A stretch of 64,000 nucleotides of DNA from Nereocystis luetkeana (taxonomy: Eukaryota > Sar > Phaeophyceae > Laminariales > Laminariaceae), in contig JARUPZ010000020.1 of NCBI GenBank assembly GCA_031213475.1, positions 5,505,858-5,569,857 of the forward strand, given 5' to 3'. How positions within the stretch are numbered: the stretch's first letter is position 1; each line of letters begins with the position of its first letter. The notes beneath the pieces were generated by a model that did no database searches, had not been told where the DNA came from, and saw nothing but the letters and a program-made list of their open reading frames with translations. Positions 7,127 to 54,000 of the stretch are shown one piece after another. Made by a program: the position numbers and the translations under genes.

Positions 7127-10100
7127 GTGAGTGGGGGGGGCGGGACGGGACGGGACGGGGGGGAGGTGTGCTCATGCCATATGCCGTGCATGGGCCGTGT
7201 GCAGGAAGGGTCCCTCTATATTGCTGGTTTAATTGCGCCGGTGTCCGATATAATGCCGGTTTGGAATCGCTGGGCACCAGTGTGGCGGTGCGCGGAATAT
7301 TGCCGGTTTCTGCTGTGTATTGTGCCGGTGTAGCATCGGCCTGGCACGTACCCGCGATATAGAGGGACCGACACTACTGCTGTAAAATGATCGTTATGCC
7401 CGTACGCCTCTCGCATCGCTACAATGCCTGGCCGGAGCACGTCGGGGCTCGACCAATCGTGGGGGGGGGGGAAGGGGCCTGGGGGGAGAGTGGGGGGGGT
7501 GGCGTGCTCGTTTGTTGCTTACCTTGGGGCGCGCATCCCTTTCGAGACGGGAGGGGGGGGGGGGGGGGGGCAGCGATAGGAGGGGGGGAAGAGAGATGGG
7601 AACAAAGCGAACGGAGAGAGGGAGGGGGAGAAGAAGACAGGCAGGACGGGGATTCAGGGGGTTTTCCACGAATATTCATACTGCATTTTTTTTTCACCCG
7701 GTGCCCGGTACCAAGTATCCCACCGTATGTCGGGACTGAGAGAAGGGACACGATTGTTTTTATTCACATATTTTACCGGGGGGCCATAGTATATAGGACC
7801 AAGTATTGTTAGTAAAAAATAGGAAAACATAAATGTTTTTTGTGTGTACCGTAGGTCTTATTTACTGTGGTCCCCTGTAATAGCAGGAAGTTGGAACCAG
7901 GTATACCTCAATATAGGTATACATGGTCTACAATGTGTCCCCTCCGGGATGGTCCTTGACTTGAAGTCATCCCGGGCGGTGTCGCAAGCTGAAAAGAGGA
8001 GAGAAAGCAGCAGGCAGCAGGCGTTCAATCCTCGTGCCAACTACCACAGTAGTCGTACGTGTCGCAAGCTGAAAAGGGGAGAGAAAGCAGCAGGCAGCAG
8101 GCGTTCGTTCCTCGTGCCAGCTGCTACAGTAGTCGTACGTTTGCCACCGGGCGAGATCGAATGAGCGTGAAAAACTTTCAAAAAGCTAAAAAAAAAAACA
8201 ATTTGAATACGCAGCCACTTCGCAAGCAACCGGGCAAGCAACACACACCATTACCAGCTTCTTCTTTTTTTTTTTTTCAAAGAGGAAGAGAGACGGGAAA
8301 TTTAGTTTCCCCCTCCTCCTTGCTAAAGTCGACGCGCGTTTTTGGCCGCTGGAATAGCGTGGGGAGGAATCTTTTGGCGCTAGCAAATGGGTCACAAGCT
8401 ATATATATATAGGGGAAGCGAGGGCCAGGAACTGGCTGAAACACTAGACAAAGGGTTAGCAAATGGGTCACAAGCTATATATAGGGGAAGCGAGGGCCAG
8501 GAACTGGCTGAAACACTAGACAAAAAGGGTTGTTGTATATTTCGTATAAGGGATACCAAGATACGAGGATTAATATGTTTTCCTGTTGTATTATATGAGA
8601 AGACAAAAATACAAGGGCTCAAAACCTTTTAGGACCGCAGTCCCGCTTTTGGGGGGCAGCCCAGTCAAATTATAAGTACTTCGTCCCCAAAACGGGGCTG
8701 CGGTTCTAAAAGGGTGGAGATAACGAGGGCTATATGGTAAAAAATCGTTCAGACAAGGCAAGAGGCAAAATACGTCGAGATTCTGGGAAGACGACAAGAG
8801 GCGACGCACGCAGAGCCACCGCCTTACGAATTACTAAACTCTTGGATCTGAATCTTGCAGTGGCCGAAGAAAAGCCACGCTCGCACGCCCAAGCACTGTA
8901 TTCCACCGCACAAGCTTGGAAGCTCTTGGGAAGACTGACTGGCCTTCTCGCTGTCTCCGCGGCCGCGTTATTTTCACGTACGGCAGTGTGGTGTTCGATT
9001 TTCGTTTTTTGTTTTTGTTTTGTTGAAGCGTATAACTTGAGGGGTGGCTGGTATCTTTACAATATATATATATATTTATATATTTATATATTTATAGGTT
9101 ACTAGAGATAATGTACCGCTGGCCTTAGACGCACTCACGACAAAACATATTACGCAGCCTTCGAATCTGAGTGTCGACCACTCGATCGATCGATCGATCG
9201 ATCGCTCATCTCACAGCGGACGTATTTTGTACCCTGGTACCTGGTACTATTTTTTTTGTATTTCTGAGGCCCGAAACACGTCCGCCGATCATACCTCTCA
9301 GGAGGAGAAACAGAAGCCGCGGAAGGTTTCCAAGAAGCACATCAAGCTGGACGAGCAGAATTCTAGGGCAAAGGTTTCCCAGGACGACGGGTACCACGTC
9401 AAGCTTCGCAAGGTGAGGAAACACCCTCTTTTTTCGTTTTTTTGTTCCCCCACGGATCCGGCCGGTTCTCGGTTTTTGGTTTAACTAAAAAAAGGTTTGA
9501 GTCGGGTCTGTTGAGTTCATACTCGTAGTGCGGTTGGACTTTTGGTAAAGTGCGGCCATCTTCTGTTGAGTAGACCCAGTTCGGTTTGATGCGGCCGGGT
9601 TCGGTTGAGTTCGGTTCGGTTCGTTTCGATGCAATCCGTTTCGGGCGGGTTCGGTCAGGTCCGGTTCGTTTCAGTCCGCTCTACGTATGCAGGCAGTGCC
9701 CCGCCGCGACGGGGAACTCCCTCGGCGCCTTGGTTCCTCGGGGAAGAGTGAGCGGCATCCCCCCCCCCCCTGCGTTTCCCTCCCCCCTTCGTAACTACAT
9801 GTGTGGCATCTAAAGAGAGCCCTTGCGGCGTTGATGACTCCATTTTTCGTGTGAAAGGCTGAATAGGCTCTACTCACTCACGTTGGTAGTGTCCTCGCCC
9901 TGCCCCGCTCCTCATCTGAACTTTTTTACATTTGACAACATGATCACCACCGTCACCACACCACCGAAACAACCAAAAACGACCACCGGCACGATACCAC
10001 CACCTCTCCTCCCCCCCCCCTCCCACCCGCATCACCCCACCCCCGCTTACAACCTCCACCACCACCATCATCACCACCCTCCTCCTCCTCCTCCTCCCCA

Positions 10101-13100
10101 GGTGCCCGTCTGGTTCACCGCGCTGGAGACGCACGGACCGTTCCCCGGCCCGCCGCCCGCGCGCAATGCGGACGCCTATCTCGGAGAGGACCACGGGAAC
10201 ATGGGGGGCGGAGGGGTGAGCAGCCCGCGCAGCGTCTACGGCGGGAGCAACCTGAGCTTCACCAAGATGGCGCACAATGCACGATCGCCCGCCCGCGCCG
10301 GCGCCGCGGGGAGCACGAACGGCGGCCACAGGAGGATGCCCTCGGACGTTAGCGTGAAGTCGGGGCTCGGGTTGAACAGGACCGGGGGGACGGCCGCGAT
10401 GCGCTCGAACCAGGGGACGTGAGTGGTGGGGTCCGGGGTGGGGTGGGACGGGGTAGGGGCGGCGGCGGGGTGTGGGTTGGGCGTGTACCCATTTTGTTGC
10501 ATGCCTTGAGTCTTTTATTTGACCCATTTACGGCGCATCCCTTTCGAGACGGAGGGAGCACCGTTCCTACTCCTACGCGTAACGGAGACACCCCCCGGCA
10601 TTTGGACGCTCATAAAAAACTTTTTTGCCGGTCTCATCCTCTTCTTGTTTTGCCGCCTGTGGCCACTCTCTTATCTCCTAGGATAGCGATCGTCTTCTCG
10701 CTGCCATCTACAGGAGTGTACCGGACGGGGGGGGGGGGGGGGCGGGGGGGGGGGTACTCATATCGTGCATGGCCGTAGTCGTATGACCTTAGACCCTCGC
10801 ATCCCTACAATGCCGGGACGCATCGCACGTCGCGTTGGAGGAGGGGGAGGTGGGCCGCGCTTGGTTGGTGTGGTTCGGTTTTTGGGGGTTGTGTTGTTTT
10901 CTCTCGCGTTGTTGCTTTGCTTGCATCCAGCATGGAAGAAAGGAAGGAAGGAAGGAAGTCCCACCGGTGTGCAGCTGCAACATTTACAACCCCTGCGTTA
11001 CAGGCCGCGTTCCAGCCCACTTCATCCCTGAGAGCCTCATGGCTATAAGACCTACCGACTGCTCTAAAGACGTGCCTACGGTTTGGTAGTGCCATGCGTG
11101 TTTCACAACCAAGCATCTCACTTTCTTTCCTGTAACCAGTAAGTACTCTTGTAAACTTATCTACCTTTTTTTTTGCCGTACATGGCGCCATGTTTCTTTT
11201 TTTTTTCCCCAACCATCGAACCTCTTATCCTATCAAGTACACCCGGCATTTTTTTGGTGCCATGTTTTTTCGTTTTTTCGTTTTTTTTTTTTTTTTTTCC
11301 ATTCAAGAAGCCTCGACCTTTTTTTCTCAACACGCACACCCGTTTTTTGGTGTGCTTGTTGCTTGTTTCCCAATCGAGAAGCCTCCATATTTTCCACATT
11401 TTCCACACCACTACACGCCTGTTTTTATCTGGTCCACATGGTTTTTTGTTCTTTCTTTTTTGTTTCTTTCTTTTTCTGCTCTTTCCTGTGCCGTGCTTGT
11501 TTCCCAATCGACAAGCCTCCCGAGCCTCTACATTTTCCAAACCAGTGTATACCTGGTACGCCTGCTTTTCGTCCACTTTTTTTTTTTTTTTTTTTCCCCC
11601 TCTTAATTTCTTTTCTTTTCTTTTGTTTTCTGCTCTTTTCTCTGATGTCGCTTGGTGCTCGCCAGTGGCGGGGGAAGCAAGACTCCGAAAGGTGGGAAGT
11701 TCCTGCAGAGACAGCTTTCCCTCCGCAGCTTCCAGCAGACGGTCAAGAACCACGCCAACACCATCAACAAGGCATCCAACGTGAAGTGAGTTTTGTCAGT
11801 TAATATCCGCTCCAGTTCGTCGAAGAAAGATGAAAGGTATAGGAGTAGGACGGCTTTGGTGTTGTGTTTCTGATCGGTTTTGTTCGTTGTGCTTCTAACG
11901 GATTTGTTGATGTGTTTCTAACGACTTTGTTGTTGGGCTTCTAACGACTCTGTTGTTGGGTTTCTAAGGGCGTTCTTGATATTTTTCTAACGGCTTTGTT
12001 GTTTTGTTCGTATCCGCTTTGGTTGTTTGGGTGACGATTTAGTTTTTTTGTGTTTCCAACTGCTTTGTTGTGCTGTTCACAGCCTCGCTGTTGTGCCTCT
12101 AACGGTGTCGTTGTTGCGCTTCTAACAGCCTTGCTGTTGTGCTTCCAACGGCTCGGTCGCTGTGTTCCTAACTAACGGCTCCGTTGCTGTGATTCTACCA
12201 GCCTTACTGTTGTGTTTCTAACGGCTTTGCTGTGGCGTTCCCGTCCGTTTGCTATCGTGCTCATGATTACTTGCTGTCGAGCTTAGGGTGGAGCCGAAGA
12301 CTTTTTTCGCGAACGAGCGGACGTTCATCCAGTGGATTTCCGCCGCGGTGTTCGTGTGAGTTTTAATACAGTATTAAAAGTGGTACATACTGCAGTATTA
12401 AAAGCGGTCCCTCGACAGCAAGTGCAGGCTTGTCCGCTCTATTGCCTAAGATCGTCTCACTATTACTACTTGCTGCCATATTACTATCACGGGGGACCAT
12501 ATTAAACACCAGGTAGGACCTACGGTAAACACAAAAACCTATATATTTCGCTATTTTTACTGTTGATAACAATATTTGGTCCTATTTACTACCATATGTA
12601 TGGTCCCCCGTAATAGTAGTCCTCTATGGTAACGCTTGGCTACGGTAGTGCCCGGTATTTAGTTCGTAATGCCTGTGGAATCGCGTTGGCACAGATGGGA
12701 GTAGCCAGTGTGGCGGTGTGCGGAGTAGTTAGTGCAGGTTGCCGGTATTGTTGCCTGGCGCATCCATTCCAGTACTGTTAGAGAGGGACCACTGCGCGTA
12801 CTGCGCCATTTTTTATCGCGCAGGTGTATACTTCGTACGAGCGTAACTCCTCCATAACAGTAGAAGTGATGATTTTCTCTGATGGTGATGTTCGCCTTCG
12901 TTCTGGGCATATTTATTTATGAGTGATCAACGTTGAGTGATGAACGCTGAGTGATCAACGTTGAGTGATCAACGCTGTCAACGTTTTGAGTGATGAACGC
13001 TGAGTGATCAACGTTGAGTGATCAACGCTGTCAACGTTGAGTGATGAACGCTGAGTGATCAACGTTGAGTGATCAACGCTGTCAACGTTGAGTGATCAAC

Positions 13101-16100
13101 GTTGAGTGATCAACGTTGAGTGATCAACGTTGAGTGATCAACGTTGAGTGATCAACGTTGTGTGATCAGCGTTGAGTGATCAACGTTGAGTGATCAACGT
13201 TGTGTGATCAGCGTTGAGTGATCAACGTTGAGTGATTAACGTTGAGTGATCCAACGTTGAAGCTCAGCTGGCACGCGCTTTTTTGCAGGACATGGTAGTC
13301 GGGCTGATGGGATCCTCCTCGCTTGAAAACAAAGACACACAAAATCGCTCGTGCACAGTAATGCTACCGTAGTATACCAGGTGTTCTGTGGCTCGCGTAC
13401 TCTCGGCGTCACTCAGTCCGCCACCCGTATACCCCTCCCCCCCCCTTCCCCTTGCCCCCTTTCCCGTTCGTTATTTTTTTGGTGTTTTGAACAGGTACGG
13501 TGTGAGTACAGCGCTGTTTGCGTTCGACGCTAACTCAGACACCAATGGGATCACGATCGCGTCGGCGGCCATCCTTTCTGCGGTCGCCCTTATGATCCTG
13601 GTGTACGGAGCGGTCATCTTCTGTGAGTTTTCGAGGTTTCACAGGCTGTCGTCGGATAATCCTCGCGATGTATTTACTATTAACCCCTCTAGAACTCCAT
13701 TCCCGTTTTGGGGACAAACCACTCTAATTCCAAGTAGTTTGCACCCCCAATTGTCCCCAAAAGGAGACTGCAGGTCCTAAAAGGGTTAATACCTGGTAGA
13801 TATTAGTAGCATGTCTTATGAAGTGGATCCCTCCCTGTGTTCGTTCGCCGCGGTAATATGCCACATTTTTTGTGCCGGGAGGCGTTATTACGGGAGTGTG
13901 TATACACGGATCCCTCATGCACGCAGGCAGCGTTTTTTTTTTTTTCTGTTCCATGCCTCTGCTATAAGTTGGCGTGGAGGTTTCACAAGCCGGACGGACA
14001 GATCGTCGCTTCCTGTGGTTTTTATTATGTCCCTGTAGATCTTTGAAGGCGGATAGATCATCTGTTCCTGATCGGTAGGGATCTATCTATCTATAGCTCA
14101 TGCTGCCGGGTGGGAACCGTAGTGGCGTGCATGATCTGCACGACGTTTTTCCTGGGTCAGATCGGTACTATGTACAGATCCTGCACAACATTTCACAACG
14201 ACAGACCAGGAGCTATTTGTAGATGATCTATCTGTAGATGATCTGTTGGGCGTGTCTTAACATTGCATGCTTTACTCGAACGCCTCCATGGGAAACCATC
14301 CTCGTTTTTTTGCGCGCTTCTAATGTTACTTCGTTTTGCCATGTTGCGCTTTTTTGCACCCCCCCCCCCCCCCCGCCCTTCCCTTCCCCGTTTTTTTTCT
14401 TCTTATTTTTTCTTTCGTTTTCCTTTGGCAGACATGCGGTTGGACAGGCTAAAGAACAGGAAAGACAGCAAGGTTTTCGCGGACAAGGTACGCGACCATC
14501 CTTATTAATAGTGCGGGCTGATCGTGTGTGGTGCACGCTAGCTACCGCGTGCCGGTATGTAGCACGCAAGATTCAAAAGCTTGTGCTCGGTATGGGCTGC
14601 GTGCCAAAGTAGATGTCCCGGGCGGCACTCGCTCTAGAGAGCATTCGGTGTGTTAGCGCTGGACGCTGCAGAATAAATACCCTACCGGAGTATCGTATTC
14701 GTTCAGTTTGGTTCGGTACATCGGTTTCCTACTGTTAGACACTCCCAGCGAGGTTGGGTACGAACTCGATATACCGGTACCTGACACCCGGGTAGATTTT
14801 TCTTGAGCCCGCAACGAAAAATCCCGCGGACGGTATATGCTTTACTACGGAAGACAATATTGCAGAGTATATATATATAGCACACACACACATCTTCTGA
14901 CGAATTTTCCTGGAATTTTCGTTCAACGTGATTTTTCTTTTGACAACGGAGAGACCGGCGCACACGCCCCAGCGAATGCCGTCTGGTTCATGGTTGAAAT
15001 GGTTGAAATACCTCATCGACGAAATCGCTTCAAAGCCACCATTTTATTTTTTATTTTTTTCTGTTGTGTTTCCCGTTTCCCACACTTTCTTTTTCGGGAG
15101 AGTTTTCGGCTCTGGCGTTCGATCCCAGGGTGGTGCGTTTGTTCCCTTGCGTGCGTGTTACACGACCTAGGCGTTTCTGCGCGATTTTTTTTTCTGATCT
15201 TCTCGAACGGCGCTTTTTTTCGTTTCTCTCCTTGCATTTTTTTTATTTTTTTATTTTTTTATTTTTTTATTTTTTTATTTTTTTTCTTCTTGATGTTTTC
15301 CCCCGCTCAGTCGTTCTCCCACGGCGTTTTTTTCTGTCTTTCCTTCTCAGCGATCCCCCCCCCCCCCCCCCGCCCCTCTCTTGTTTTGACATTTTGGCCC
15401 TCGATCGTGCTCAAAACGGCGTTTTTTTGTTGCAGTGGGGACCGGGGATGCTTGCCCTGGGGCTCTTCGCAGCCATCGTTACGGTGCTCGCCATGCAGGT
15501 TAACGACTTCATCGCGGCGAACGACACGCCTTCCGTCAGCACCGCGGGAGTTTCGGAGGCCGTCACCCACGTGCAGAGCTACATCTGTGAGTCCAACATC
15601 GGAACCGACAGGCGGGGACGCAAGAAGTGTGTCCCCGGGGTCGGAGAAAGCCTCCTGGATGTACACTAGTAATAAATATCGCGAGAGACAGACGACACTG
15701 CTTGCATCGTCGGCGACCCTACAGCAGCAGCACGGGCAAAAGACGTGGGGAGCGGCCACCACGAGGGGAAAAGCGTTCGCATCCCAAAGTATACATGCAC
15801 TTGGTACGAGTTGAAGCGACGATGGAATATGGTATCTGGTACCACATAATGTTTTTTCAACCTTACCTCTTTCCGCTGTTTATTTTATTTTTTCCTCTCG
15901 CCACTAAACAGAACCACTTGCGGTTTTCCGTTTATTACGTGACTATCGCGCGGGGGACCATAGTTAATAGGACCAAATATTGTTCGTAAAAATGGGTAAA
16001 TGTATACTGGTAGGTTTTTATGTATACCGTAGGTCCTATTAACTATGGTCCCCCGTAATAGTTACACGTGAAAAACCCTCTTGATATCTTGACTTTTCAT

Positions 16101-19100
16101 CTTTCGTTTTTGCCACTCGTGGTTGATTTTCCATTATTATCATGCTTGCCTTCCGACAACATAGCGTGTAAATGCTATTCCCATAAAAACCGAGTATACT
16201 TCTGTAAATCAGCAGTATTAATTTCGTTGCTGCCTTAATATCACCGGTAATTTCAGAACTACTCGTGGTTTTCCGTTTTTTTTTGTTGTTGCTGCTTAAC
16301 CCTTTTAGGACCGCAGTCCCGTTTTGGGGACAAACTACTTGAAATTCGAGTGGTTTGTCCCCAAAATGAGACTGCAGTTCTAAAAGGGTTGACAATGTCA
16401 CCGCGGGTTCAAATAAAAAAAAAAAAAATGTTGGATGTTCGTTGGCCGTCCGTCCGAGTGCGCAAACATCGTATCTCGATCCAGTGTCATCATCGGCTGA
16501 ATCGATACAAACATACCACAGGTGTACTCTGTTCATGAGTCGCGTTGTCTGCCGGGTGTTGAGTTGGATGTTTGGATTTCGTTTTTGTTTGTTGGATGTT
16601 GGTTTTTGTTTGTTGCTGTTGTTGTTGTTGTTGTTGTTGTTGTTCGTTTCCTTGCTCGCTCTTGGTAGTTACCGCGAATGAAATCGTGCTTCCTCTTCCA
16701 CCCCGTGCTGTTCGTCCGTTGCCCCCCCCCCCCCCGCCCCACCTTCTTGTTGTTCTGTCAGACGACGGTGTGCTTTTCAAGCCTACGGCCACCTCTAGGA
16801 ACTCCGCGCTCGTCCAGATGGTGAGGGGGTGGGGGGAAAAAAAAAACACGAAGCAAAAGAAACACACACCAGTGTACTACTCTATCAGCCGTTCTTTGCC
16901 GTTGTTTTTCGTGGGAGAATAAAACACCACTCAAACTATACACCCAGTTTTTTTATCGATCAGCCTTTTTTTTGCTTTTTTGTTGGTGTTGGTGTTGGTG
17001 CTGGTCTGGTGTTTCTCGTCTCGTTGACCTTCCAGCTCGGCTTGTGGTAGGGGTTTATAGCCCCAGTGTCATTCTGGGCAGGCCGTGGTCACAGCCGCTG
17101 TCTTTTTTGCCTTTGAACCTACGAAATTATCAGGTAAGAAAATACATGGTTGAGAGAGCAACTGCTGTGCATCCCCCTCCTCCTGCCAGCCCCCCCCTCC
17201 CTCCGAGCGCTTAACAAAATGAGTAGTTTCCTATTGTACTTATCCGTAACTGCTGCTGCTACATCGTATTCATCGCAGTTTACATATAGGTTTTTATGTG
17301 TATCATTGGTCCTGTTAACTATGGTCCCCCGTAAGAGTAACCACTGCTGCTGCTGCTGTGATACCTCAGGCGTCCCAGCTGAATGACTTCGAGCCGGACA
17401 AGGCATACGAGTACGAGAACTTGAGCGACGGCAGGCCGAACAAGAAGCTGCGAAGGCGAACCGAGTACGTCATCGCGGCGTCGTCGGCCTCGGACATCAC
17501 GGAGTTGCCTTACGGGGAGGCGGTGCTAGTGACATCGCAGGTGACTTTTATTTTTTCAACCCTTCAGGGATCCCAGGACATCGAACCAACTCTATAGTAG
17601 TACCCGTGCACAACTCTCTTGTCCTTAAATTGTACGGGCTATTTTCATACTACTATTTAATATGAATGCGCGAAATTTTCTTGCGTTGTGGTATACCATA
17701 ACCCAGAAGAAAGCACACCCCCCCTTAGTTAACACCTCCCACCCGAAATGCTCCGCCCCGGCATTGTAGGGATGCGAGGGTCTATTGGTCTTGCGACTAC
17801 AGTAATGCTCATGCATGATATCGCGTACATATCATCCTATCGAGTACACCCCCCCCCACACGCACATGAGCACACCTGGTGATACTGTTTTTTTGTTTCG
17901 TTTTTCTACGGTCGTTTTATATCACCGGGTGCGTTGTTGGATAGCACCCCCCCCCCGCCCCCGCCCACAATAGCACACCCGGTGATGTTAATTTCCAAAA
18001 GGTCGTTTATTTTATCACCGGGATGTGCTTACTCCCGTGCAACAGCAGAGTGCCAAAGTGTCCCTTCAACTGCGATGATCTGTGTTTGTATACTAATAAT
18101 ATACCTGGTACAGTTTAAGAACAACTCAATACGTCTACGTACGATACGATACGATGGTAAATGCACCGAACGTATTACCGAAGGTAACCTGGTGGACGTC
18201 ACGATGTTTTTTTTTTCATTTTTTTTCTTCTTTTTCTCCGTTTTGTTTCGTGCGTTCGTGTGGGCGTTTTTTTGTTTCGTTTTTTTCACGTGTGTGCACG
18301 CACCACTCCTCCGACATAGGACCGATTCCCACTCCACATGGTGCACGAATGTTTTTTTGAGGCAGATATAGATCTATTGCGATCGTGTATGCATGATCTA
18401 TCTGTAGCCCCAAGTTTCCGGGTGGGAGCTGTGTAATCTGCATGATCTGCCGTATAAGCTGCGTGATCTACAGCAGTAGCAGATGTTCCCTGGGTTAGAT
18501 CTGTACTACACAGATAGATAGCTCCTGCACAACCTCTCACAACGGTAGGTTCGGAACTAGACGATCTACAGTAGACAGATAGATCATGATCTGTTCGAGG
18601 TGTACGTGGATGTCTCGGCAGGGTCTCGACCCGACCCTAGCACCTCTACAAACCCCAGACCCCAACGCCGACCTCCGTTCCGTCGCGTCGATGCATTGTC
18701 CGTGTATCACAAAAAAGGAGGAAGTGATGCTGTATCCGGGAGCGGACACGGGCAACTTCGACCTCTCGATGGAGTTTTTCAACACTTCCTCGGTCGATTT
18801 CCGCGGTCCCTACGCAACGGAGGCGTTCTCCGGCAAGGAGAAAACCGCCATCCAGGTGGGGGAAGGGGCATGTGTTGGGCAACCCTCCTGTTGCTTTGCT
18901 GCTGTGGGAGTAGGGAGGTTTCTCTGGTGAAGAAATGAGGGTGGTCATTAGAGGAGTAGTAGAAGGAGGACCAGGAGTATTAATAGCAGTGTTTACAGTA
19001 GTTACAGCAGTAGTAGTATTGCGGAGGGCCATAGTAAATAGGACCAGATATTGTCAGTAAAAATATGTAAATATATAGGTTTTTGTTTGTACCATAGGTC

Positions 19101-32466: not shown

Positions 32467-32852
32467 TACGACTGATGTGCTGCAGGTATGCCGGACACAC
32501 ATTTTTGTGTATACATATTGACGTGTGTTTTCGTGAATGCTTTGCCCTCTCTTTCTCTACCAATCTGGTCGTAAATATAAGGAACGCTTAGTAATAATAT
32601 TAGTGTAAAAACTGCCCTTATATTCCCGCTCAGAGTGTGATATGATATACCAGAGGTACCTGGTACTTCGACGATTACAGACAAAAATACAGGTCTCCTG
32701 TGGGGGGCCGCAAGTTTGAGCCCCTACATGTGCAAGTCCCCTCCTCTTTCAAAGTCTTGCCGAGGCTACTTACTGCTTGCTTGCTCTAAAATTGATTTGC
32801 ATGTACATAATGGAGTAGTAGGCTTATTTACTTGGCAGCTTGCGCCGTCACG

Positions 32853-33313: not shown

Positions 33314-33425
33314 CTATTGCGGAGGACCATAGTTAATAGGATCTACGGTATACACAAACACCTACCTGGTATATATTTCATCATTTTTACTATTACGGGG
33401 GGCCATAGTTAATAGGACCTATCCC
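33314..33425. repeat. TA-MITE left half with nested second MITE start
   Basis: A left half runs from TATTGCGGAGGACCATAGTT to ATTTTTACTA, where a second copy starts (TTACGGGGGGCCATAGTTAA) and is itself cut off. It carries the CCTGG-TA insertion at 33363-33371. Confidence 0.8.
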
Positions 33426-33809: not shown

Positions 33810-33972
33810 ATAGGACCTACGGTATACATAAACACCTACCTGGTATATATTTAATCATTTTTACTATTGCGGGGGACCATAGTTAATAGGACCTATGGTA
33901 TACATAAGAAACTATATATCTAACCATTTTTACTAACAATATTTGGTCATATTAACTATGGTCCCCCGTAAC
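33806..33972. repeat. Nested TA-MITEs
   Basis: A left-arm fragment (AGTTAATAGGACCTACGG to TTTTTACTA) is followed by a complete copy 33868-33972 (TTGCGGGGGACCATAGTTAA to ATGGTCCCCCGTAA). The fragment repeats the layout of 33314-33392, including its CCTGG-TA insertion. Confidence 0.8.
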
Positions 33973-34073
33973 ACAATTTGTTGACACTTCGTGCCACGGT
34001 CGTGTACTTCTTCTTCTACTTTGTTCCGTCCCATTATTGACGATGTTCGCTCTTCTTGCTCCTGCCTCCTCCT

Positions 34074-34855: not shown

Positions 34856-34859
34856 ACCA

Positions 34860-35090: not shown

Positions 35091-35092
35091 TG

Positions 35093-35354: not shown

Positions 35355-35731
35355 CCTTACAAGTCGTACTAAAAAAGAGACGAGCGGGCCAGTGCCCAAA
35401 AAAAGCTTGCCTCGGAAGGGGGAGGAGCTCCTTCTTTTTTCTGAGGCAACCCTTTTCGCGTCATGAGGAGAGAGAGCCCTCCTTGCTCAAAAAAAGATGA
35501 CACATACATACGTGCAATCAATCCCATGGGCTGTATACACACTTTTCTTTTTTTTTTCCCTGTTTTTTTTTTTTCTCTATCATCCCATAAAATGTTCCTC
35601 GCCCTACGTGTATACTGTCCCGCTCCCTCCCTCCCACAGTAGTAATTCACTCCAGGGCCACATACATACATACATACCCTGGTATATTAATGTTTTCAGC
35701 GGGCTCTCCTTCATTTTTAACTGTACAACGG

Positions 35732-36545: not shown

Positions 36546-36671
36546 GGGGGACCATAGTAACTAGGACCAAATATCATTACTAAAAATCGGTAAATATATA
36601 CCTGGTGGTAGTTTTTAGTGAGTACCGTAGGTCCTACCTGGTACCTGGTATTTAATACGGCCCCCCGTAAT
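36540..36671. repeat. TA-MITE with three CCTGG insertions
   Basis: TACTACGGGGGACCATAGTA to TACGGCCCCCCGTAATA. The centre has TACCTGGTGGTA and the right arm carries a tandem double TACCTGGTACCTGGTA at 36635-36650. Confidence 0.85.
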
Positions 36672-36998: not shown

Positions 36999-37120
36999 CT
37001 ATTACGGGGGACCATAGTTAATAGGACCAAATATTGTTCGTAAAAATGGTTAAGCATATATATACCTGGTAGGTTTTTATGTGCACCATAGGTCCTATTA
37101 ACTCTGTTCCCCCGTAATAA
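36999..37120. repeat. TA-MITE with a CCTGG insertion
   Basis: TATTACGGGGGACCATAGTT to CTGTTCCCCCGTAATA, with TACCTGGTA at 37063-37071. Confidence 0.88.
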
Positions 37121-38769: not shown

Positions 38770-38965
38770 AGTGCCATGATCTACAGGCAGTAGATGATCT
38801 ACTATACCAGGTATTTCCTATCCTGGGGTGGTATCTATCCGCGCATATAGCACAGATCCAAGCCAGCAAACTCGTGCTACGTACGAGATCATGCTATTTG
38901 TACGGTTCTCACCCATTATATCATGATGAGCTATCGCTCATCCGGAACAGGAAGCTATACATCTG
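38770..38965. repeat. GATCT-rich dispersed repeat, diverged
   Basis: CATGATCTACAGGCAGTAGA, GATCATGCTATTTGT and GGAACAGGAAGCTATACATC resemble the other GATCT-rich patches. Confidence 0.5.
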
Positions 38966-39364: not shown

Positions 39365-42300
39365 TCAACGCTTAGGAGAGCTCGACCCGCTCCGCGCCCC
39401 ACGAGGAGAAGAGGGGGGAGAGCCCGACACCCCCTTTCTCCGCCACGGCGATGACGAGCGCGAGGATGGTGACGCTGGCGGAGACGGCCGCTGTCCTTCC
39501 TCGGCGTCAGGGGACACGGCCGCGTTGATGGCGCCGTAGCTGCTTGGCAACCAGCTGAGGTCGGCGATGCGGACCCTGCGCAGCAGCGGCGGAAATATAG
39601 AGGTAGAGGTGGTGGTGGTGGATGTTGGGATTTAGGGGTGGGGGTAGCTGCAGATGTTGAGGGTGTAATTGTTGTTGTTGGTTGTTGTCAATCATTAAGC
39701 TTGTTTTTCCAACCTTTCCACCGCCACCAGCCGGTCAACTCCGACTCCCAAGCACTCACACGTGAAGCATTTCCTTTCCAAAACAGGGGCAGGGGTGCAG
39801 TAGTCGCCCCAAAAACAGGGGTATGGGTACAACAGCAATCGCCCAAAAAACAGGGGTACGGGTACAGCAGTCGCCCCAAAACAGGGGTACGGGTGAGGTA
39901 GTCGCCCCAAAAACAGGGGTAAGGGTACAGTAGTCGACCCAAAACAGGGGTAGAGGTGGAGTAGTCGCCTCACAACAGGGGTACGGGTATAGCAGTCGCC
40001 CCAACACCTGGCGTAAGGGTACACTAGTCGTGCTAAACAGGGGTAGAGGTACGGTAGCCGCCCCAAAACAGAGGTACGGGTACGGCAGTCGCCTCAAAAC
40101 AGGGGTAAGGGCGCAGCAGTCGCCCCCAAACAGGGGAAGGGGTACAGCAGTCGCCCCAAAACAGGGGTACGGGTACACTAGTCGCCCCCAAACAGGGGAA
40201 GGGGTACAGCAGTCGCCCCAAAACAGGGGTACGGGTACGGCAATCGCCCCCAAACAAGGGTATGGGTACAGCAGTCGCCCCAAAACAGGGGTACGGGTAA
40301 GGTAGTCGCCCCAAAAACAGGGGTACGGGTACGGCAGTCGCCCCCAAACAGGGGTACGGGTACAGCAGTCGCCCCAAAACAGGGGTACGGGTAAGGTAGT
40401 CGCCCCAAAAACAGGGGTAAGGGTACAGTATTACGGGGGACCATAGTTAATAGGACCAAATATAGTTAGTATAAACAGGTAAATATATACCTGGTAGGTT
40501 TTTGTGTATACCATAGGTCCTATTAACTATGGTCCCCCGTAATAGTCGACCCAAAACAGGGGTAGAGGTGGAGCAGTCGCCTCGAAACAGGGGTAAGGGT
40601 ATAGAAGTCGCCCCAACACAGGGGTAAGGGTACACTAGTCGCCCCAAAAACAGGGGTACAACTGCAGTAGTCTACCCAAAACCAGGGGTACGGGTACGCT
40701 AGTCGCTTCGAAACAGGCGTAGGGGTACCGTAGTCGCCCCCAAACAGGGGTAAGGGTGCAGTAGTCGCCCCCAAACAGGGGTAAGGGTGAAGCAGTCGTC
40801 CCCAAACAGGGGTAAGGGTGAAGCAGTCGCCCCAAAACAGGGGTAAGGGTGCAGCAGTCACCCCAAAACAGGGGTAAGGGTGCAGCAGTCGCCCCAAAAC
40901 AGGGGTAAGGGTACAGTAGTCGCCCCAAAAACAGGGGTAGGGGTATACCAATCGCCCCAACTCAGGAGTGCAGCCATCGCTAAAATCTAGTCCGTGGTTA
41001 CGGGGTATACAGGCTGAAAAAAAAAAAAAAAGGAGACTTGTGTGTGCGGCGCGAGAAAAAGAAACGGGGGAGGGCGAGTACCGAGGCGTCAATTGCGCTC
41101 CATTTTTTCTCTGATTTCGCGCATGCATCCCCATGCCAACGCGGCCTGGGTGTGGTCGGAGCCAAGGGGACTCACAAGCCGCCACGAAACAGCCTTCTGC
41201 TTTGCTAGAACGAGTGCTAAGAATCCTCCAAATCAGACGAAGGCATGAACCGTCGACGAGAGCTGTAGACAGCACAGCGGCGTGGCTGACAGCGGAGAAA
41301 GGACGGAGGGGAAACAACAAAAGTTCGAACGCTTCAACTCCAGGATTTTCAACATCAATAGATAGCAGGAAAGCAACAAGAAAGAGACAATGAACAAGCA
41401 AAACAAAACAAAACACCTGGTATACCGAGAACAAAACATTGCAAAGGCAACGACAAAAACGAGGGGAAAAAAAAACAAAGAGGGAGGACAGCAAAAAAGG
41501 GAGAAAAGGAAAAGGAAAAGCAACTGTTGAATCGAAGAACATAAAACGAGAACAAACACAAAAACAACAATATGTTTTACCAATCCGCCGGAGGATAAAA
41601 AACAAACAAACAAACAAACAAAAGAAAGAGCGACAAAACGACCAAAAAAGTTAAATATGTAAAGAGAAAAAAAAAAAACGTCAAAAAACGTCAAAAAACG
41701 TCAAAAAACGTCAAACACACCTGTATGTGGAGGATAGGTTCCGGGAAACTTCCGCAGAATTCTTGTCGCACATGTACCGACGTAAGATACACCAGAAAAT
41801 ACTGTCCTAGCGTAGAATCTTACCCGCAGTCTGACGCTCTCCGGGATAGCAACGCCCAAGAGCAAGAGCCAAGGCAAGTCTTCTCGACTCGCCCGGACTC
41901 TCACTCTTCTCCTCCCCACCTATAGCACGTGGAGGGCTCTCTCCTTGCCTACCTCAAAAAAAGGACCGGGAACTGCAGCCCCCTGGTCACGGATTAAAGC
42001 TACTACCTGGTACGTCACTTACTTGGGACCCTAGGAGATACGGGGCTTCATGTGTACGTGAAAAACAAAATGAAGAAAAGAAGTGTGACAAAAACAACAA
42101 CAACGTAAAATATGCCAAAAAAACAACAGCAACAAGAAACCAAAAGGTGCACGTTACGAGTACACAAGTAAGTCGTACGTAAGTAAAATATGTTGAAAAC
42201 AAAAAAAAAATGCCAGAAAAATATATACTCGTCGTACCGACGGATTGTGGTACAAACCGAAGAGCTATTACGGAGGACCATAGTAAATAGGACCAAATAT

Positions 42301-46036: not shown

Positions 46037-49000
46037 CTGGAGCCGACGGAGCTTGAAAGGTCAAGCGTTGGAGGGGCGGGTGGGGTGGGGTGGGGGGGGG
46101 TGGGGTTGGGGGGGGGGGCGAGGGTGGTGAGAGTGGGGGTGGGGAACGTCGAGGAGGGGAGGGAGGAAGCAGCGGAGGGAAGCGGCGGCATGTCATACAT
46201 TAGATGCCCTCAAGCCTCGTGCCACGGCAATGGTGATGTAGCTGTTCGTGTCGACACCCCCTCCTACCTGATGTAGCCATCGCTTCTACTAACCCTGCCA
46301 AAACACGCCTCCCCGGAAAAAGGAGACGCGCAAGTCCCGCAGCTGCCAATGCTTGTACCACCTCAACATGGACTTACACCATATCACCGTACGTAGCCTC
46401 CCCGAAACGTCTCGCCGTGAACAGGTGGTACCACAGACACGATGGCTGCGCCATGTCATCCCGGATGCCTACCATGCCACCACGACTAACACCATATCAC
46501 CGCGGCCACCTACCCTTGTGTCGCCACGCCCGACCATCCCACCACGACCATATATCAACAGAAGAACGGTGGGCGCCTTGAAGTGGTCAAACTCCTAGCC
46601 CCACTGAACCACTGCGTCGGCGGTTTTTCTATGTTTGCTGGGTTCCAACGACAGCAGTCTTGGGGTCGTATTCGTCACCTTGAACGATGCGCGCCAGCAG
46701 CGAATAAACCTTGTACGGTGGTGGCTGGGTGCGTATGGGCGCGGGGGGGGGTGTGGGTTGCTGGTTGCGTCGGTTGGTACGTGGGGCTGGTTGGCCCCAC
46801 CATCATCACCAACACTACCCACCAACCATTCGATGTTACGCGATGAGCGTCAGCGCAAAAAAAGCCTCCCACGGCGTATGAGTAGGCGGGGGGGGGGCGG
46901 GGGGGGGGGGGGGGGGGTGTTTCCGCCCTCCTTGCTTTCTACCTACCTGGTACCAGGTATATATTACGGGGGACTATAGTTAATAGGACCTATGGTATAC
47001 ATAAAAACCTATATATTTAACCATTTATACTAACAATATCTGGTCCTATTAACTATGGTCCCCCGTAATAGTTAAAACCCTTACCTGGTACGTCGATAGA
47101 GACCGTACGTCGGTAGATTCCATGGCTGTCAGTGAATTTCGGACGGTTGTGGTAACAAAAATCATAAATATTTCCGTGTGGTTGATATCACCGGTACACC
47201 CCACCAAAAGCAGAACAAAAAATCGAGCCGTGTGTGTGTGTGTGGGGGGGGTGTATTGATTCATGTCTTCAGGTGTCGATAGGTACCAGGTCCAGGAAAC
47301 CGCTGCTGCTGTACACCAGTAATAACCACTATATGCCAGCAGTACTATACAGCAGTAGTAGTATGCTAACTGCTTCGGGATCTGATCAGGTGGACATGAA
47401 CTTTTCTAGGTCGTCATTACACGTACGTATCTGAACAGTCCCCGCTTCCCTGATTTGAAGCCAACATATTCATGTGAAGCCCACCGACACCGCGATCTGG
47501 TACGGGCGTGCTCGTTCGGCCCGGAACCGACGAGCAAAGGGACACCACCATCTACTGTACAGAGTCCCGCAAGCTCTACCCTTCGAGGCCTCGGTTCTAT
47601 TTGATGCGGCTGGGAGACCGCGGCTTTGTTCTCGGAGATCTTCCTGCTTGACCGGAGTACCTCGCAAGCCCTGTACGTACTGCTTCTGTGCTTCCTCGTA
47701 CCAGTGCAGTATACGCTTGGGTTCCCACTTGCGAGCGGAACGGTTCCCTATTACGGGGGAACATAGTTAATAGGACCAAATATTGTCAGTAAAAATTGTT
47801 AAATATATAGGTTTTTGTGTATACCATAGGTCCTATTAACTATGGTCCCCCGTATTAGTAGTAGTTCGAGTACCTACCACGACAAATCTCGACGAACTCA
47901 AGTCGACTTCGGACGCGAACGGAGGAGGATTGAGGCGCACGTAAGGGGCCTCCATAGACACCGTCGGTGTCAACTCGGTGGTGCTTCGGTGGCGCGCGAG
48001 GGACAAAGGTCAATCCACACACCAACACAGCAACATCTATCCGAAGAAATAAGAATTCTGGCTAATGTAAGGGGACGCTTCGAGGAACACCGCTCTCAGA
48101 ATGTTCTTTGCACCCACACACAGCAGTCGCGGCCCATTCGATAACGGAGAGACGCCGTCGCTTGCTTCGCTCGCTCCGACGTCTGGCTCCTCGGTAAAAC
48201 AGTTGAAGGAGTGAGAAGCGTGACAGACGCCTTCGAGGCCTTCGAGGTCACACGCTCTTTTCCTGCATTGGGTCGTACTGCGTTGGCTTGTTTGCTATTA
48301 CGGGGGGCCATAGTTAACAGGACCAACTATTGTTAGTAAAAATGGTTAAATATATAGGTTTTTATGTACACCATAGGCCCTGTTAACTAGGGTCCCCCGT
48401 AATAGTGAGAACGAAAAAAATACGCTCCATTTTTGTAAAAAATGTTTCTTCCTATGTACCTACAATATACCAGGGTAACAGTCTATTTTTACAGTGTTCC
48501 AAGCAACAGCGGGTAGTTCGACCATCTGCCACGAACCACGACCTGCTGTAGCTCCGTGAAGACCATCTGCCACGAACCACGACCTGCTGTAGCTCCGTGA
48601 ACTCATGACGGCTTTGGACACGAACAGTCAGAAGATAAAACTGGTCATTAGGGGGCTCCATAGTCATCGCCCGTGTCGAAATCGGTGGTGCTTTGGTCGA
48701 GCACGGTGACAACACGGCACGGAGACAACCGCACGCACACACCAACACACGCGTGAAGAAAGTCGATGAGGCAAACAAAATCGCGCTATGGTTCGATTTT
48801 GGATCAAACCTTTTTCCGTACGTACTGTATGTACACACGCCCCTGGACCCGACTATCAAGTACAGCATTTTTCGTTCAAAATGGAGTAATATGTCGTCGG
48901 GCTGTCGCCTTCCTCGATTTTTTTTAGAATTTCATTGATGGTACCCTCTGCCCGAATTCTTTTCTAGCGCGTTGGCGCTAGAAAGGGCGTCCGGCTCCTC

Positions 49001-51030
49001 AGTTGAAATACCGCCAAGACATTTGAGTGTATCTACAGTATCATGCCATGCCTGCATACCATATCACCATGGCTACACCATCTAACGAACGAGATGAAAA
49101 TGCCCATATACCGTGCTACCCTAGCTACACCACCCCACCAACAAGATGCATACCATACCACAACAAAACCGCTTCACAGATAGTCCATCTACAACTACTG
49201 CGGACAATGCGTGCCGGGTGTGTCATATCACCGTGGCTGACGAGTAAGTACACCATCCCACCAACGCTACACATATCGCATCCCAATAGCTGGAACTGCA
49301 GGCTTTCTTATCCCCGGGGATAGGGAAACAAACACATAAACAACCCCGGTTTTCACTGATAAGCCACCCGCCAGGTTCGTCACCGGCACCTACCTACTGC
49401 TTTAGGTCACTCTATGCCCATCGCTGGTCTCACCATGCCTGCAGAGGTGGCGCGAGATCGTTCCCACGTCAGCGCCTCCGAGATGTCTATCTGAGGCCTC
49501 TTCGTGGTCTGAAGCATCTCGAACCTCATCAGGGCCACCCCCGCAATGACCTGCCAGCCGCCGGGACGCAACACTTCATAGATCAGATCAGATCAGATCA
49601 GATAGATCCCCATTTCACTACTCGCCCTAAGCGCAGGACGGGTAGGCACAAAACTATGTGCAGGATGCAGGTCTCATTGGTCAAGGCCGGCCTGTTTCGG
49701 CCGCCCGAAAGTTTTTTTTTCTTCTTTTTTTCGGAAAAACGCCACCAAAACACGCGGCGTGACTGTCCCTGCCGACCTCAAGCCCCTCCCAAAGGGATGG
49801 ACTTAGAGTTCGGTCAGGCCTGGGGCCGGGTTGGTCTGGGCCGACGTGTAAGGTTGAAATTGACGACCACTTTTCAATATCTCCAGCAGCTCCTTCGGGG
49901 AAGACAGATTCCTGACTATGTTTTCATCCGCAGGATCTGAATCAAGGTATTGTGTATGTAATACATACCTGGTACAATGTTTTTTAGGGCGGGATCTGCG
50001 GCATACAGAGTCCTGATCCATTCGATCTGCGAGATCTGCATCCAAATATCTAGATGTTGTTTTTGCGGGTGGGATCTGTGTAACACAGCTCTTGCGCACG
50101 TGTTTTTCCCGGTGACATCTGCGCGGCACAGCTCTCGTTACACGACAGATCACAACGGGAAAGGTTGGGTCTATAGATGATCTACAGCAGCACGGTAGAT
50201 GGTCTACAGCAGGATCGTGGTTCTCTACAAGGTGTGCAATGTTTTGACACCAGGGGTTGGCAGCAGCAGCACGCGCGGAGGGGACGGGCATGGGGATGGG
50301 GACGGGTAGGCAGAGCCAGTCGTGGCCGAACAAAAGTTACCAGGAGTAGTTGCGAAATAAATACGGAAATTGCCCGAACCAACTACCATTACTGCTACGT
50401 ACTATCACCGCCACCAACAACAACGGCATCAGCAGCAGCAACCACCCCTACCACCACCGCTACAAAATGACCACGGACTCCTTCGTCAGAGAGTTGATGT
50501 GAGAACAACAACAATCACAACCACCTCCGAAAGCATACAAAATATCATCCCTACTATCAACAACCCAACCTAACCGTCAGCCTAACCCACCACCAACACT
50601 ACCAGACCCCCCCACCACCACCATCACCAATACCACCACCACCATCACCACAATCACCATTCCCCTCCCCCTGCCCCCCCCCCCCCTTCAAACTGTAAAT
50701 GCTCCTATGATATGAAAAGCACCGCCCGCTCCGCCTTGCATCACCTTGCCGCCAAAGTCTAGCTCTTCACGCCCGATAAGTCTCAGCTCGGGCGGAAAGC
50801 TAACACCCCCCCCCTTCCCCCTCCCACCACCGCCCCCACCCCCGCCGCCACCGCCACCACCGCCACCACCACCACCGTCACCGACGCTGCTGGCGCTCCT
50901 GCCGAACCCCACCGAATCTTCCACAAACTGCTTCGGAACTGAGAAAGCCGCAGCGCAGGCTCTGTTGAGTTTCGCCGCTTGGTCGTAACCAGCCTGTTCT
51001 CGATAAACACACACACGAAAAGAGAGAGAG

Positions 51031-51095
<65 letters not shown>

Positions 51096-54000
51096 AGGGC
51101 CCATCAGGGCCAAGCTGGGGGCAAGCTACGGCTAAGCAGGGCCAAGCTTCGAGATCAGCTCAGACACAAAGCAGGGCTAGTCAGGGTCGATCAGGGCCGA
51201 CCAGGGCCAACAAGGGCCAAGCAGGACAATAAGGGACAAGCAGAGCCAATCAGAGCTAAGCAGGGCCAAGCAAGACCAAGCTGTGGCCAATCATGGAAAA
51301 GCAGAGCCAACCAGACAAGGCCAATCAGGGCCAAGCTATACTGTAGGGCCAACCACGGCGAACAACAGTCAATCAGGGCCAAAGAGCGTCAATCAATTCA
51401 AGCGAATCAAGACCATTCGCGGCCAACCTTAGGCCAATCAGAGCAAAAGCGGAGTCAATCAGGGTGAACCAAGGCCAATCAGGATAAACAACAGCCAACG
51501 AGGGCCAATGAGGGCCAAGCAGCGCCCAATCAGGGCCAACAAACAGCAGGGTCGACCAAAGCAACCAGGCTCCACAAGGCTCGACCAGGACCGATTACGC
51601 CCGACCTATAGCCGATCAAAAACCAGGGCAACAAGTCCGAGAGCGAAGTGGTTTGAAAAGGGTGCTGCCGCCAAAGGGGAAATACTGGAGGTACGTAAAA
51701 ATAAAACTACTGGCGAATATACTGGCCGACTTAAATCAGTAGATTACTACTGCCAGTAGACTACTACTGCCAGTACATACTACGCCAGTGCCCAGCCCTA
51801 CTGATAAAGGCATATTTTTTCAACTGGGGAGCTACCGGACCCAGCCAGTATCGTTTGTTTTCACACATGTCTCTTACGTTAACCTACTACCTGGTACCGT
51901 ATATGCATATAGGCCATGGACGGGATTTTGCTCGTCGGCTTACTCCTTTTCGGACCGACAAATAGCGACAAAAAACAATGAATAACTCTAGTCTTACCCC
52001 CCGCCGTCTACGAGCGGCGTGAGGGGTCCGCAAGCACGGAGCAGGATCAGGCTGCGGCCGTGCGGTACAATTCCTTTCACCAACCATTGTAACTCGGGAC
52101 ACCAACCATTGCATCATCCCCCGAATCATCACGCGGTGGTCGTCGCTGTATTCGTCCCTTTGGGACCGTCAACCCCCTCCTCCCCCTGCTCATGGCCAAA
52201 CGACTACGGCCATGCCTGATAACGAGTGCACCCCCCCCCCGGGTGGTCGATGGTCAAATGAGACTAAGGCAAGCAACAAAAATGAGTACGCCCCCCCCCT
52301 CCCCCCCTCCCCCGTCTGAACGATGCCCCGAGGGGGTTGATCAAGCGTACACTTTTCCCTTTTTATCCCTTTTAGGACCGCAGTGCCGTTTTGAGGACAA
52401 ACCACTCAAATTATAAGTAATTTGTCTCCAAAACGAGACTGCGGTACTAAAAGTGATGCCGTTTTTTTTTGTGGTGACACTCTGTCCCGATACACATGGC
52501 CTGTTTCATTGAATATAATAGTACAAACGTTCATTACACTAAGGGACATAGTGGTATATAAAGTTTTCGTCACGTGGTGAGCCTCAGGAAAATTGCAGGC
52601 CTCCACCGGAACATGCGTCAGCGGCAGCAGCAATAACAGCAGCAGCAGCGGCAGCAGCAGCAGCAGCAGCGGCGGCAGAAAAAGACGCGTTCTCACCTGA
52701 AATATCGAATGCGACGAACAGAAGGGCTGCGTCGCGACGATATGGGTCGCGCCGGCCCCAAACTTCCGCGCCCACTCCCCGTACTCTCTCGACCGCAGGA
52801 CCTCCGCGGGAGCGAGATGCACAAGGCAAGGCGCCACCCCAACACCTCCCCCCGCCCCACCACCACCACCACCGCCACCGCCACCACCACCACCCCCACC
52901 ACCACCATCACCAGTGGTGTTAGCGCTGTCCTTAGCGTACAGGCGGTCCCAAGCAGGGTGGGACACAAGCGAAGGGGTGAGCTCCACCGACGGACAGCCG
53001 ATGATCAGCACCGGCGCCCCTGATCGAGGCGGCCCAAGGACCTTGGTGTTCGTAGTGCGTGGGGAGGGGAGAGGGTGGAAGAAATCCGTCCCCGGGGGGG
53101 GGAGAAGGGAAGGGGGGGCAGGGAGGGGGGGTAGAAGAGGCGGTAGCAGATAGATTAGCCATTTGAGGGAAAAAATAAATCGGCGCAAGGGTGCGGTGGC
53201 AGCGAAGAGAGCGACCCCAAATGGGGGGTCGGAGATCGATGCATCTAACATCACATTGACCGCCCAGCCGAAACAGACACACAACCAACCGACAAAATTA
53301 TTAACAACCAACCGAGCGACCAATCAACCAACCAATCAAAACGACCAACCGATACGATTAATCGACCGACCAACCAACCAACCAATCAACCAACTAACCA
53401 ACCAACCAATCAATCAACCAACCAATCAACCAACTAGTCTGGCTATGCGGCGTTTTCAAGCAGAGGCGGCGACGCGCACCCACACGCCCGACGGCGGCAA
53501 ACCTCGAGCCAATAAACTAGGAGCTCCCACTATCTTTGCGTGGCTCAAAGAGGCGTTTAACTTTGCACAGGAGTACGACCACTTTTCAGCGCTCGATTTT
53601 TCCTGAACGGCAAGGTTGCCGAACACGAACACCGTTCAACAAGGTGTTCTCGCAAAAAGGGTCTGGTCGAGAGCCTCTCCGGCGGGGAAAAAAAAAAAAA
53701 AAAAAAAAATGTTCCGACTCTAGCACCCCTCTTTACCGTTGTCAACACAAACACGACCGCCGAAATAGACGACCGCACCCCTCTTTAAACTCGAACGCCC
53801 TTTTACATTTACGGTATGTGCCGTCGCACTTTGCATGTAGCAACACGAGCGTGCCACGATATTTGGCACATACCCCTTTAGCACCGCAGTCCCGTTTTGG
53901 GAACAAACTATTTGAAATTTGACTGGTCTGTCCCCAAAACGGGACTGCGGTTCTAAAAACGACCGCTACGCTGCGCCGCTCTGCACGTGGCTCACCTGAG

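Follow-up and report, generated by a model that had tools for sequence, protein, structure and literature searches.

The 64,000 nucleotides of the Nereocystis luetkeana genome analysed here (the window) contain the W-centred palindrome TACCWGGTA far too often for a random word, which raises the question of what process writes the same nine bases at so many places. An initial annotation of the window had compared these words to the footprints left by Tc1/mariner-type transposons. The evidence presented below makes it likely that each TACCWGGTA indeed marks a place where a DNA transposon of the Tc1/mariner type (Stowaway-like) entered at a TA and, on its later excision, left a footprint. For brevity the word is referred to as a scar.

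Over-Representation of the 9-mer

The window holds 20 exact matches to TACCWGGTA, against 0.46 expected from dinucleotide shuffles (none of 100 attains this number) and 0.68 under a third-order Markov model. The excess noted in the initial annotation is therefore borne out, and all 18 of the coordinates listed there are correct; the sites at 11550 and 13790 had been overlooked. No single-mismatch neighbour of TACCTGGTA, its own complement excepted, has more than three copies in the window. Exact matches are found on the forward strand at 11550..11558, 13790..13798 (directly adjoining a terminus of a TTAA-type MITE copy), 18102..18110, 20295..20303, 42004..42012, 47082..47090, 49966..49974, and 51888..51896, and on the reverse strand at 38805..38813. 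Two further forward-strand scars have distinctive neighbours: TACCTGGTA at 9238..9246 is stacked on TACCCTGGTA at 9230, with which it has its left TA in common, and the scar at 32657..32665 adjoins a Stowaway-like copy. The remaining sites are associated with copies of a 109-bp TA-MITE (family A) and are described in the next section.

The same excess is seen throughout the 465-Mb assembly. The genome-wide count, set beforehand as a refutation test, is far above expectation, at 182,395 (91,155 + 91,240 on the two strands) vs 1,744 (883 + 861) for the reversed control, equivalent to one copy per few kilobases. Because there is no strand bias at this scale, the 17:3 orientation skew of the window is chance. 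A C on the right flank, present at most unique window sites but in 31 of 93 in a larger sample, was rejected as a scar feature. The word also occurs on contigs binned in two bacterial MAGs (three copies on L002, two on L003, and one each on L008 and L009); these contigs are apparently algal, and the 9-mer may therefore be useful as a marker in comparisons of related genomes. A literature search for the 9-mer returned no alga by title among the matches listed, and neither Pfam on ten large ORFs nor Rfam and tRNA scans gave a match.

Could chance combined with repeat bias produce such numbers? Eight of the 20 sites in the window fall within masked repeats, and those at 33363 and 33837 probably represent one duplicated event. 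However, 12 sites remain against 0.41 expected after masking of tandem repeats and the TA-MITE, and together with the genome-wide count this leaves the explanation with a practically negligible probability, and it is rejected. A functional binding motif under selection would account for the near-uniform sequence and for the deficit of single mutants relative to exact copies (129,460 vs 180,651, both above background). This share of single mutants is, however, compatible with simple decay. In MITE copies the word originates by insertion at TA; it also stacks at 7-bp intervals and is flanked by a target motif, all of which makes selection on a binding site extremely improbable. If decayed copies are allowed for, a crude one-age model puts the scar total at about 360,000.

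Insertion at TA in MITE Copies

Alignment of family-A copies shows inserts at TA, mostly of 7 bp, at several TAs. The sister alignments given in the initial annotation are real, and the same MITE has two further insertion sites. Among the first 100 listed of 1,814 copies, 85 lack an insert at the best-studied site, which makes the empty form the commoner allele among them; the other 15 carry inserts of 7 (nine copies), 8 (two), 6 (one), 13 (two), and 14 bp (one), as derived from coordinates. The insert table was reduced from 149 copies to 117. This insertion polymorphism confirms that the bases are added at TA. A TA stands on both sides of the insert, by definition in the word itself and by observation in the MITE copies, and the proposed resemblance to Tc1/mariner excision footprints is supported.

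In the window, site 1 of family A is occupied on the forward strand at 37063..37071 and 40488..40496 and in the part copies at 33363..33371 and 33837..33845. Site 2 (AATA|GGACC) is occupied at 20007..20015 (reverse strand), and site 3 holds the double scar TACCTGGTACCTGGTA at 36635..36650 (forward strand; words at 36635 and 36642). A second double scar, TACCTGGTACCAGGTA at 46944..46959 (words at 46944 and 46951, strand unassigned), adjoins a family-A copy. Variant inserts also occur at site 1, namely the long TACCTGGTGGTA at 36599..36610 (forward) and the short TACTGGTA at 16005..16012 (forward) and TACCAGTA at 19964..19971 (reverse), and at site 3, TACCTGGTG at 12507..12515 (reverse). Others are TACCCTGGTA at 35675..35684 (forward) and TACCAGGGTA at 48468..48477 (reverse). 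The shorter variants described earlier are thus present, but as a class they are hardly enriched over 280 kb (18 vs 14.5 expected).

Scars stack in a 7-bp step, as in the double scars that share a TA, and a regular-expression search for uninterrupted array units gave 0 matches. The step and the stacking suggest that one footprint can seed the next insertion.

Target Motif around Scars

A palindromic target motif surrounds the scars (p 5e-14 at +6 and 1e-15 at +7). It was derived from 89 of 126 scars after removal of nested, MITE-like, duplicate, and edge cases; a laxer filter leaves 93. The motif has a held-out median percentile of 0.91, and when learned from scars in other DNA it places the MITE insertion hot spot at the top of 17 TAs. 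Part of it, W-A at -7/-6, is common to scars and a Stowaway-like element family: it precedes 83,995 of 182,395 scars (46.1%), 867 of 2,937 TA-CCACTCTGNCC element ends (29.5%), and 1,800 of 13,730 random TAs (13.1%). On 15 element half-sites, drawn by eye from 12 of 23 element hits with L109 excluded, the scar motif scores 0.19 vs -1.31 for background (p 0.0036); eight of these half-sites have T at +6 and eight have A/T at +7, the latter not above background. Family A was considered as a donor and rejected, as its 94 insertion ends lack the scar motif (mean -1.30 vs background -1.33) and just 7 of 71 ends have W-A at -7/-6. Viral contigs scanned for exact matches to this MITE gave none.

Candidate Donor

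The element family in question is abundant, flanked by TA, about 80 bp long, and without coding capacity, with CCA...TGG ends of the CCACTCTG...CAGAGTGG type. The assembly contains 2,937 exact TA-CCACTCTGNCC ends vs 30 in the control. The size and lack of coding capacity are those of a Stowaway MITE (<500 bp, no coding capacity), and a TA target duplication of 2 bp is seen in L109, L075, L073, and the window copy at 38168-38250, the TA being decayed in several other copies. The ends, however, read CCACTCTGNC and do not match the 10-bp Stowaway terminal consensus, CTCCCTCCRT, and the family is therefore called Stowaway-like rather than assigned to Stowaway.

The window copy at 38168-38250 (forward strand) has termini TCACTCTG...CAGAGCGG; other copies lie at 32559-32638 (reverse, one TA decayed) and 52477-52556 (forward, degenerate, E 4e-6), with a fragment at 3707-3759 (reverse, E 2e-4) and a possible, weak remnant at 60987-61059 (reverse, E 0.3). 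Because the first three are degenerate copies of such an element, the earlier statement that the responsible transposon is not in the window was wrong for a transposon of this kind, while its prediction of CCW-type termini for the likely donor agrees with the CCA...TGG ends. Most known copies of the element have diverged (about 66-79% identity), whereas the scars look younger, which speaks against the footprint reading. Transposase profile PF13358, the single profile searched, gave 0 matches in the assembly (G000) among 30 candidates.

We suggest the following sequence of events. A Stowaway-like element, with the CCACTCTG...CAGAGTGG family or its relatives as the best candidate donors, would insert at TA and duplicate it, and the transposase would later make its cuts a few bases in from the element's ends, so that CCA stays on each flank. 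Repair would mostly overlap the two ends at one base, where A opposite A becomes A or T, and the product would be TA-CC-W-GG-TA; less often, both ends would be retained in full (CCATGG) or more bases lost (CCGG). Each scar would place its two TAs 6-7 bp apart, the spacing favoured by the target preference, and because it may thus supply a good new target, scars could attract more insertions and stack.

The spectrum of joins bears on these ends in two directions. Inserts of the CC...GG, CCATGG, and CCACTGG types fit CCAC...GTGG ends, and among site-1 alleles selected as CCWH (48 found, 41 read) the most frequent join is CCATGG (11 of 41), and CCACTGG occurs twice. Outside this selected set CCATGG is nearly absent, with 0 scars in the unbiased 126 kb (the window, C5, C10, and C1:58040-80000) and 3 in 189 kb, and the overlap product CCWGG is therefore surprisingly dominant. 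Counts in loci L010-L075 are biased, since these loci were chosen for holding the 9-mer or the MITE-scar pattern. The unbiased sample also contains 5 CCAGGG/CCCTGG scars vs 39 CCWGG; this class does not fit CCAC...GTGG ends, is not derivable from CCA...TGG ends, and counts against the proposed donor.

A different, Sleeping Beauty-like element with ends CCAGG(G)...(C)CCTGG would handle this class better. Its 5- or 6-nt overhangs would pair with themselves apart from an A:A mismatch, which accounts for the strong uniformity of CCWGG and, at 6 nt, for CCAGGG/CCCTGG; the CCACTCTG family would then be unrelated and merely similar in target taste. Such an element leaves the CCATGG and CCACTGG joins unpredicted, however. 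Among 50 TTAAATATATACCWGGV sites read (of 51 found) there is no donor, L127 being ambiguous, and no local element has CCWGG terminal repeats except the scars themselves. Short MITEs with two CCWGG termini and a length of about 46-106 bp were likewise rejected as donors (565 vs 650 in the control). Overall, we consider an element of this type unlikely.

The 182,395 scars greatly outnumber the 2,937 exact element ends, and filled MITE hot-spot sites are rare, comprising L109 and perhaps L114 among 41 read and perhaps L127 among 50. Locus L109, the sole clear filled site, initially looked like a fresh donor but was downgraded after comparison with L008; it is probably an old composite that another alga shares. 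Such scarcity would be expected if the inserts were written by another enzyme, or if TA-bounded sequences were removed in some life stage by an IES-like program that leaves few or no donors in the assembly. Yet in letters and in target preference the scars agree with an ordinary TA element family, and a slow build-up of ordinary excisions likewise yields more scars than copies, so that we regard programmed writing or removal as very unlikely. Also improbable is a high-throughput, near-uniform form of excision in place of sporadic transposition, in which elements of low copy number repeatedly insert and leave, perhaps through a dedicated or domesticated pathway, and in which every scar restores a favoured target and the scars thereby ratchet into arrays.

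Comparison with Known Systems

If the footprint reading is true, this genome is an unusually rich record of otherwise invisible jumps. One diagnostic 9-mer marks about 180,000 putative footprints in one genome, so that past transposition, target choice, the end-joining spectrum, and the relative age of excisions might all be reconstructed from the sequence by itself.

The footprint of Sleeping Beauty has the form TACWGTA. The scar resembles it as a W-centred palindrome between two TAs, but is two bases longer, and CCA overhangs would not mutually pair as CAG does. The 3-nt 3' overhangs that mariner and Sleeping Beauty transposases are described as leaving (PMC7827188) are of the length supposed here; in Sleeping Beauty, Tc1, and Mos1 such overhangs are mended by end joining.

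Footprints of Stowaway are described as 1-4 bp fragments of the terminal repeat beside TA duplications, and the terminal consensus quoted above is from the same source (PMC1925063). As proposed here, Stowaway and the plant mariner-like Osmar elements leave a TA duplication with 1-4 bp of terminal repeat per side, and several different footprints occur at one site (PMC1925063; PMC4561436). In those systems footprints amount to a handful per locus, whereas in this brown alga one form dominates, with about 1.8x10^5 copies and stacked arrays. The element ends differ as well.

Among brown algae, Ectocarpus is described as having 17 families of Mariner-Tc1 MITEs with 11,912 copies, most of them non-autonomous (PMC12477816). 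The words 'excision' and 'footprint' have 0 occurrences in the main text of that paper. In the footprint studies cited here, cut-and-paste footprints were found by comparing alleles or genomes (PMC1925063; PMC4561436; PMC4423477). Comparisons of rice species likewise provide a genome-wide survey of DNA-transposon excision footprints; there, footprints recovered by two-genome alignment are described as complex and variable (PMC4423477), unlike the uniform word read here from one genome.

Abundance of TACCWGGTA

The 9-mer TACCWGGTA, read here as the putative excision footprint ("scar") of a Tc1/mariner-type, Stowaway-like element, occurs 20 times in the window, versus 0.46 expected from dinucleotide shuffles, and 12 copies versus 0.41 expected are left once tandem repeats and the TA-MITE family are masked. 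Each of its single-mismatch neighbours, its own complement excepted, has at most three copies in the window. All 18 positions in the initial annotation were recovered by an exact-match scan, but that list was incomplete, with 11550 and 13790 missed. In the 465-Mb assembly G000, in which the window lies at C20:5505858-5569857, the over-representation first noted locally becomes a strong genome-wide excess (91,155 + 91,240 copies, versus 883 + 861 for the reversed control word), or one copy per 2.5 kb. The strand bias seen within the window (17:3) is absent genome-wide and is therefore attributed to chance. None of the literature matches listed (titles and the starts of abstracts) describes the motif from algae, which does not prove absence.

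TACCWGGTA is also present in apparently algal contigs filed under two bacterial MAGs (G001 and G002). The algal MITE is carried by L001 and L002, contigs from public MAGs that bear the names Phycisphaera and Flavimaricola; these are probably mis-binned algal DNA, or else, in the case of L001 (65.5% G+C, MITE at the contig end), a chimera.

Putative Scars as Insertions in a MITE Family

Family A is a 109-bp TA-flanked MITE (TA-TTACGGGGGACCATAG...), of which 21 copies or part copies were aligned within the window. Their inserts read CCWGGTA, CTGGTA, CCTGGTG, CCTGGTGGTA, or two units, and occupy three different TAs at which the remaining window copies have no insert, in agreement with the earlier proposal that bases are added at a TA, at different positions in different copies. 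In a wider set (two foreign contigs and ~290 kb from the genome itself), which the fetching route enriches for scars, 117 of 149 copies are near-full; these contain 128 inserts of at least 3 bp, and those of TACC...GG type cluster at a few TAs. The exact flanks of insertion site 1 match 1,814 copies genome-wide; 85 of the first 100 listed have no insert, and the other 15 have inserts with lengths, derived from coordinates, of 7 bp (9), 8 bp (2), 6 bp (1), 13 bp (2), and 14 bp (1). Empty is the common state, and the step is 7 bp, the insert size given in the initial annotation.

A family-A MITE (40429-40544) splits a 31-bp tandem array of ~38 copies (39778-40960), with flanks ...GGGTACAGTA and TAGTCGACCC...; the uninterrupted GGGTACAGTAGTCGACCC at 39900 in the same array is an exact empty site for this MITE, with TA duplication.

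Target Preference and Stacking

A motif was built from the TA-flanking bases, both sides pooled, of 89 scars outside arrays and outside family-A-like flanks. Position +1 is poor in A, T is preferred at +3 and +6, and A/T at +7 (chi-square p 5e-14 at +6 and 1e-15 at +7), and each side shows the motif separately, with A at -6 in 50/93 scars and T at +6 in 44/93. Ranked against the TAs of the window, the median held-out scar stands at percentile 0.91, and the motif places the family-A hot spot first of the 17 TAs of that family (99.9th percentile). Neither chance recurrence of the 9-mer nor its reading as a binding motif predicts such flanks, which are of the kind expected where a dimeric transposase selects its target.

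Scar units are also stacked: of the arrays in 189 kb, 106 have one unit, five have two, and one has three, and four units stand together at each of two loci, L074 and L132. TACCAGG with CCTGGTA no more than 60 bp behind it is found 11,856 times versus 568, many of the listed pairs being the 16-mer TACCAGGTACCTGGTA. The two TAs of a scar lie 6-7 bp apart, the spacing preferred by the motif, and we infer that stacking arises because this spacing fits the target preference. Single-mutant forms number 129,460 above background versus 180,651 exact copies (ratio 0.72), which on the assumption of a single age for all scars gives roughly 7% per site; this estimate carries additional error from primary join variants and from the control chosen.

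Candidate Donor Elements

Joins were tallied by script at 41 of the 48 sites ATGGTTAAATATATACCWH. The commonest are CCATGG (11), CCTTGG (4), and CCTCG (3), followed by CCTAGG, CCACCAGG, CCACTGG, and CCTTG (2 each), and the 15 leftover sites have 15 different sequences. At L109, among these 15, the site holds a Stowaway-like element of 80 bp, TA-CCACTCTGACCC...GGGTGAGAGTGG-TA, and L114 may be a second filled site. The same nested element lies in a family-A-like flank at L008, one of the apparently algal contigs filed under bacterial MAGs, so L109 is probably an inherited composite rather than a fresh insertion. The responsible transposon had been thought absent from the window; however, relatives of this candidate donor lie at 38168-38250, 32559-32638, and 52477-52556, with weaker ones at 3707-3759 and 60987-61059, among 23 matches in ~300 kb, window included (E up to 0.3). 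A PF13358 profile search of G000 gave no transposase match among 30 candidates.

The element end, TA then CCACTCTGNCC, occurs 2,937 times genome-wide, versus 30 in the control. W-A at -7/-6 precedes 867 of these ends (29.5%) and 83,995/182,395 scars (46.1%, somewhat inflated by stacking; arrays were excluded from the 89 motif scars), compared with 13.1% of the TAs in an unbiased sample of 126 kb (the window, C5, C10, and C1:58040-80000), 12.6% of non-scar TACC, and 9.9% of family-A ends. These figures indicate a preference common to the element family and the scars, which family A is without. The scar-motif score of 15 element half-sites averages 0.19, versus -1.31 for background and 1.08 for scars (p 0.0036), although +7 alone is not above background (A/T in 8/15); four elements with both flanks, L109 included, fall at percentiles of 0.92-0.999.

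The unbiased 126 kb contains 39 TACCWGGTA, 5 TACCAGGGTA or complement, 5 TACCGGTA, 4 TACCSGGTA, no TACCATGGTA, and 13 of the one-base-shorter class TACWGGTA/TACCWGTA. The shorter variants noted initially do occur in MITE copies (e.g., CTGGTA), but as a class TACCAGTA/TACTGGTA are hardly enriched, being close to expectation (18 versus 14.5 in 280 kb). CCA...TGG ends would yield CCWGG where they overlap by one base (A facing A, repaired in either direction), CCATGG by joining without overlap, and CCGG when each side loses one base; they would not yield CCAGGG. Donors ending in CCAGG, with self-pairing overhangs, would explain the uniformity of the joins better, but none was found in a local scan or at the 50 sites read of 51, where L127, a family-A site 1 that reads TACCTGGAAAAAG... 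(near side only), may be an exception, and elements of ~46-106 bp with CCWGG at both ends number 565 versus 650 in the control.

Genes and Other Repeats in the Window

A minus-strand ORF at 45-46 kb resembles ribonuclease Z (37 matches). The named relatives high in the ranking are unnamed proteins from Hapterophycus canaliculatus (48% identity, 75% covered) and from Ectocarpus (55% identity, 33% covered), and this one gene suggests that the genome is that of a brown alga. Translation of a read-through frame on the plus strand gives a weak VTC-domain match (E 3.7e-5) at ~5609-5848. Long inverted repeats at 32847-35360 enclose an interstitial telomere-like ACCCTA array (35113-35182).

A second MITE-like family of ~93 bp, AACCCTTTTAG...CTAAAAGGGTT, is represented ten times with an identity of at least 60%, at 782-874, 1935-2027, 8624-8716, 13682-13774, 16298-16390, 20954-21046, 43582-43674, 52365-52457, 53871-53963, and 56427-56519. 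TTAA-like sequence flanks several of them, and there may be a likeness to piggyBac ends. TACAGTA/TACTGTA is over-represented in the window as well (19 versus 5.2 after masking; 23 TACWGTA sites listed). These sites could be scars of another family, TACWGTA being the form of Sleeping Beauty footprints.
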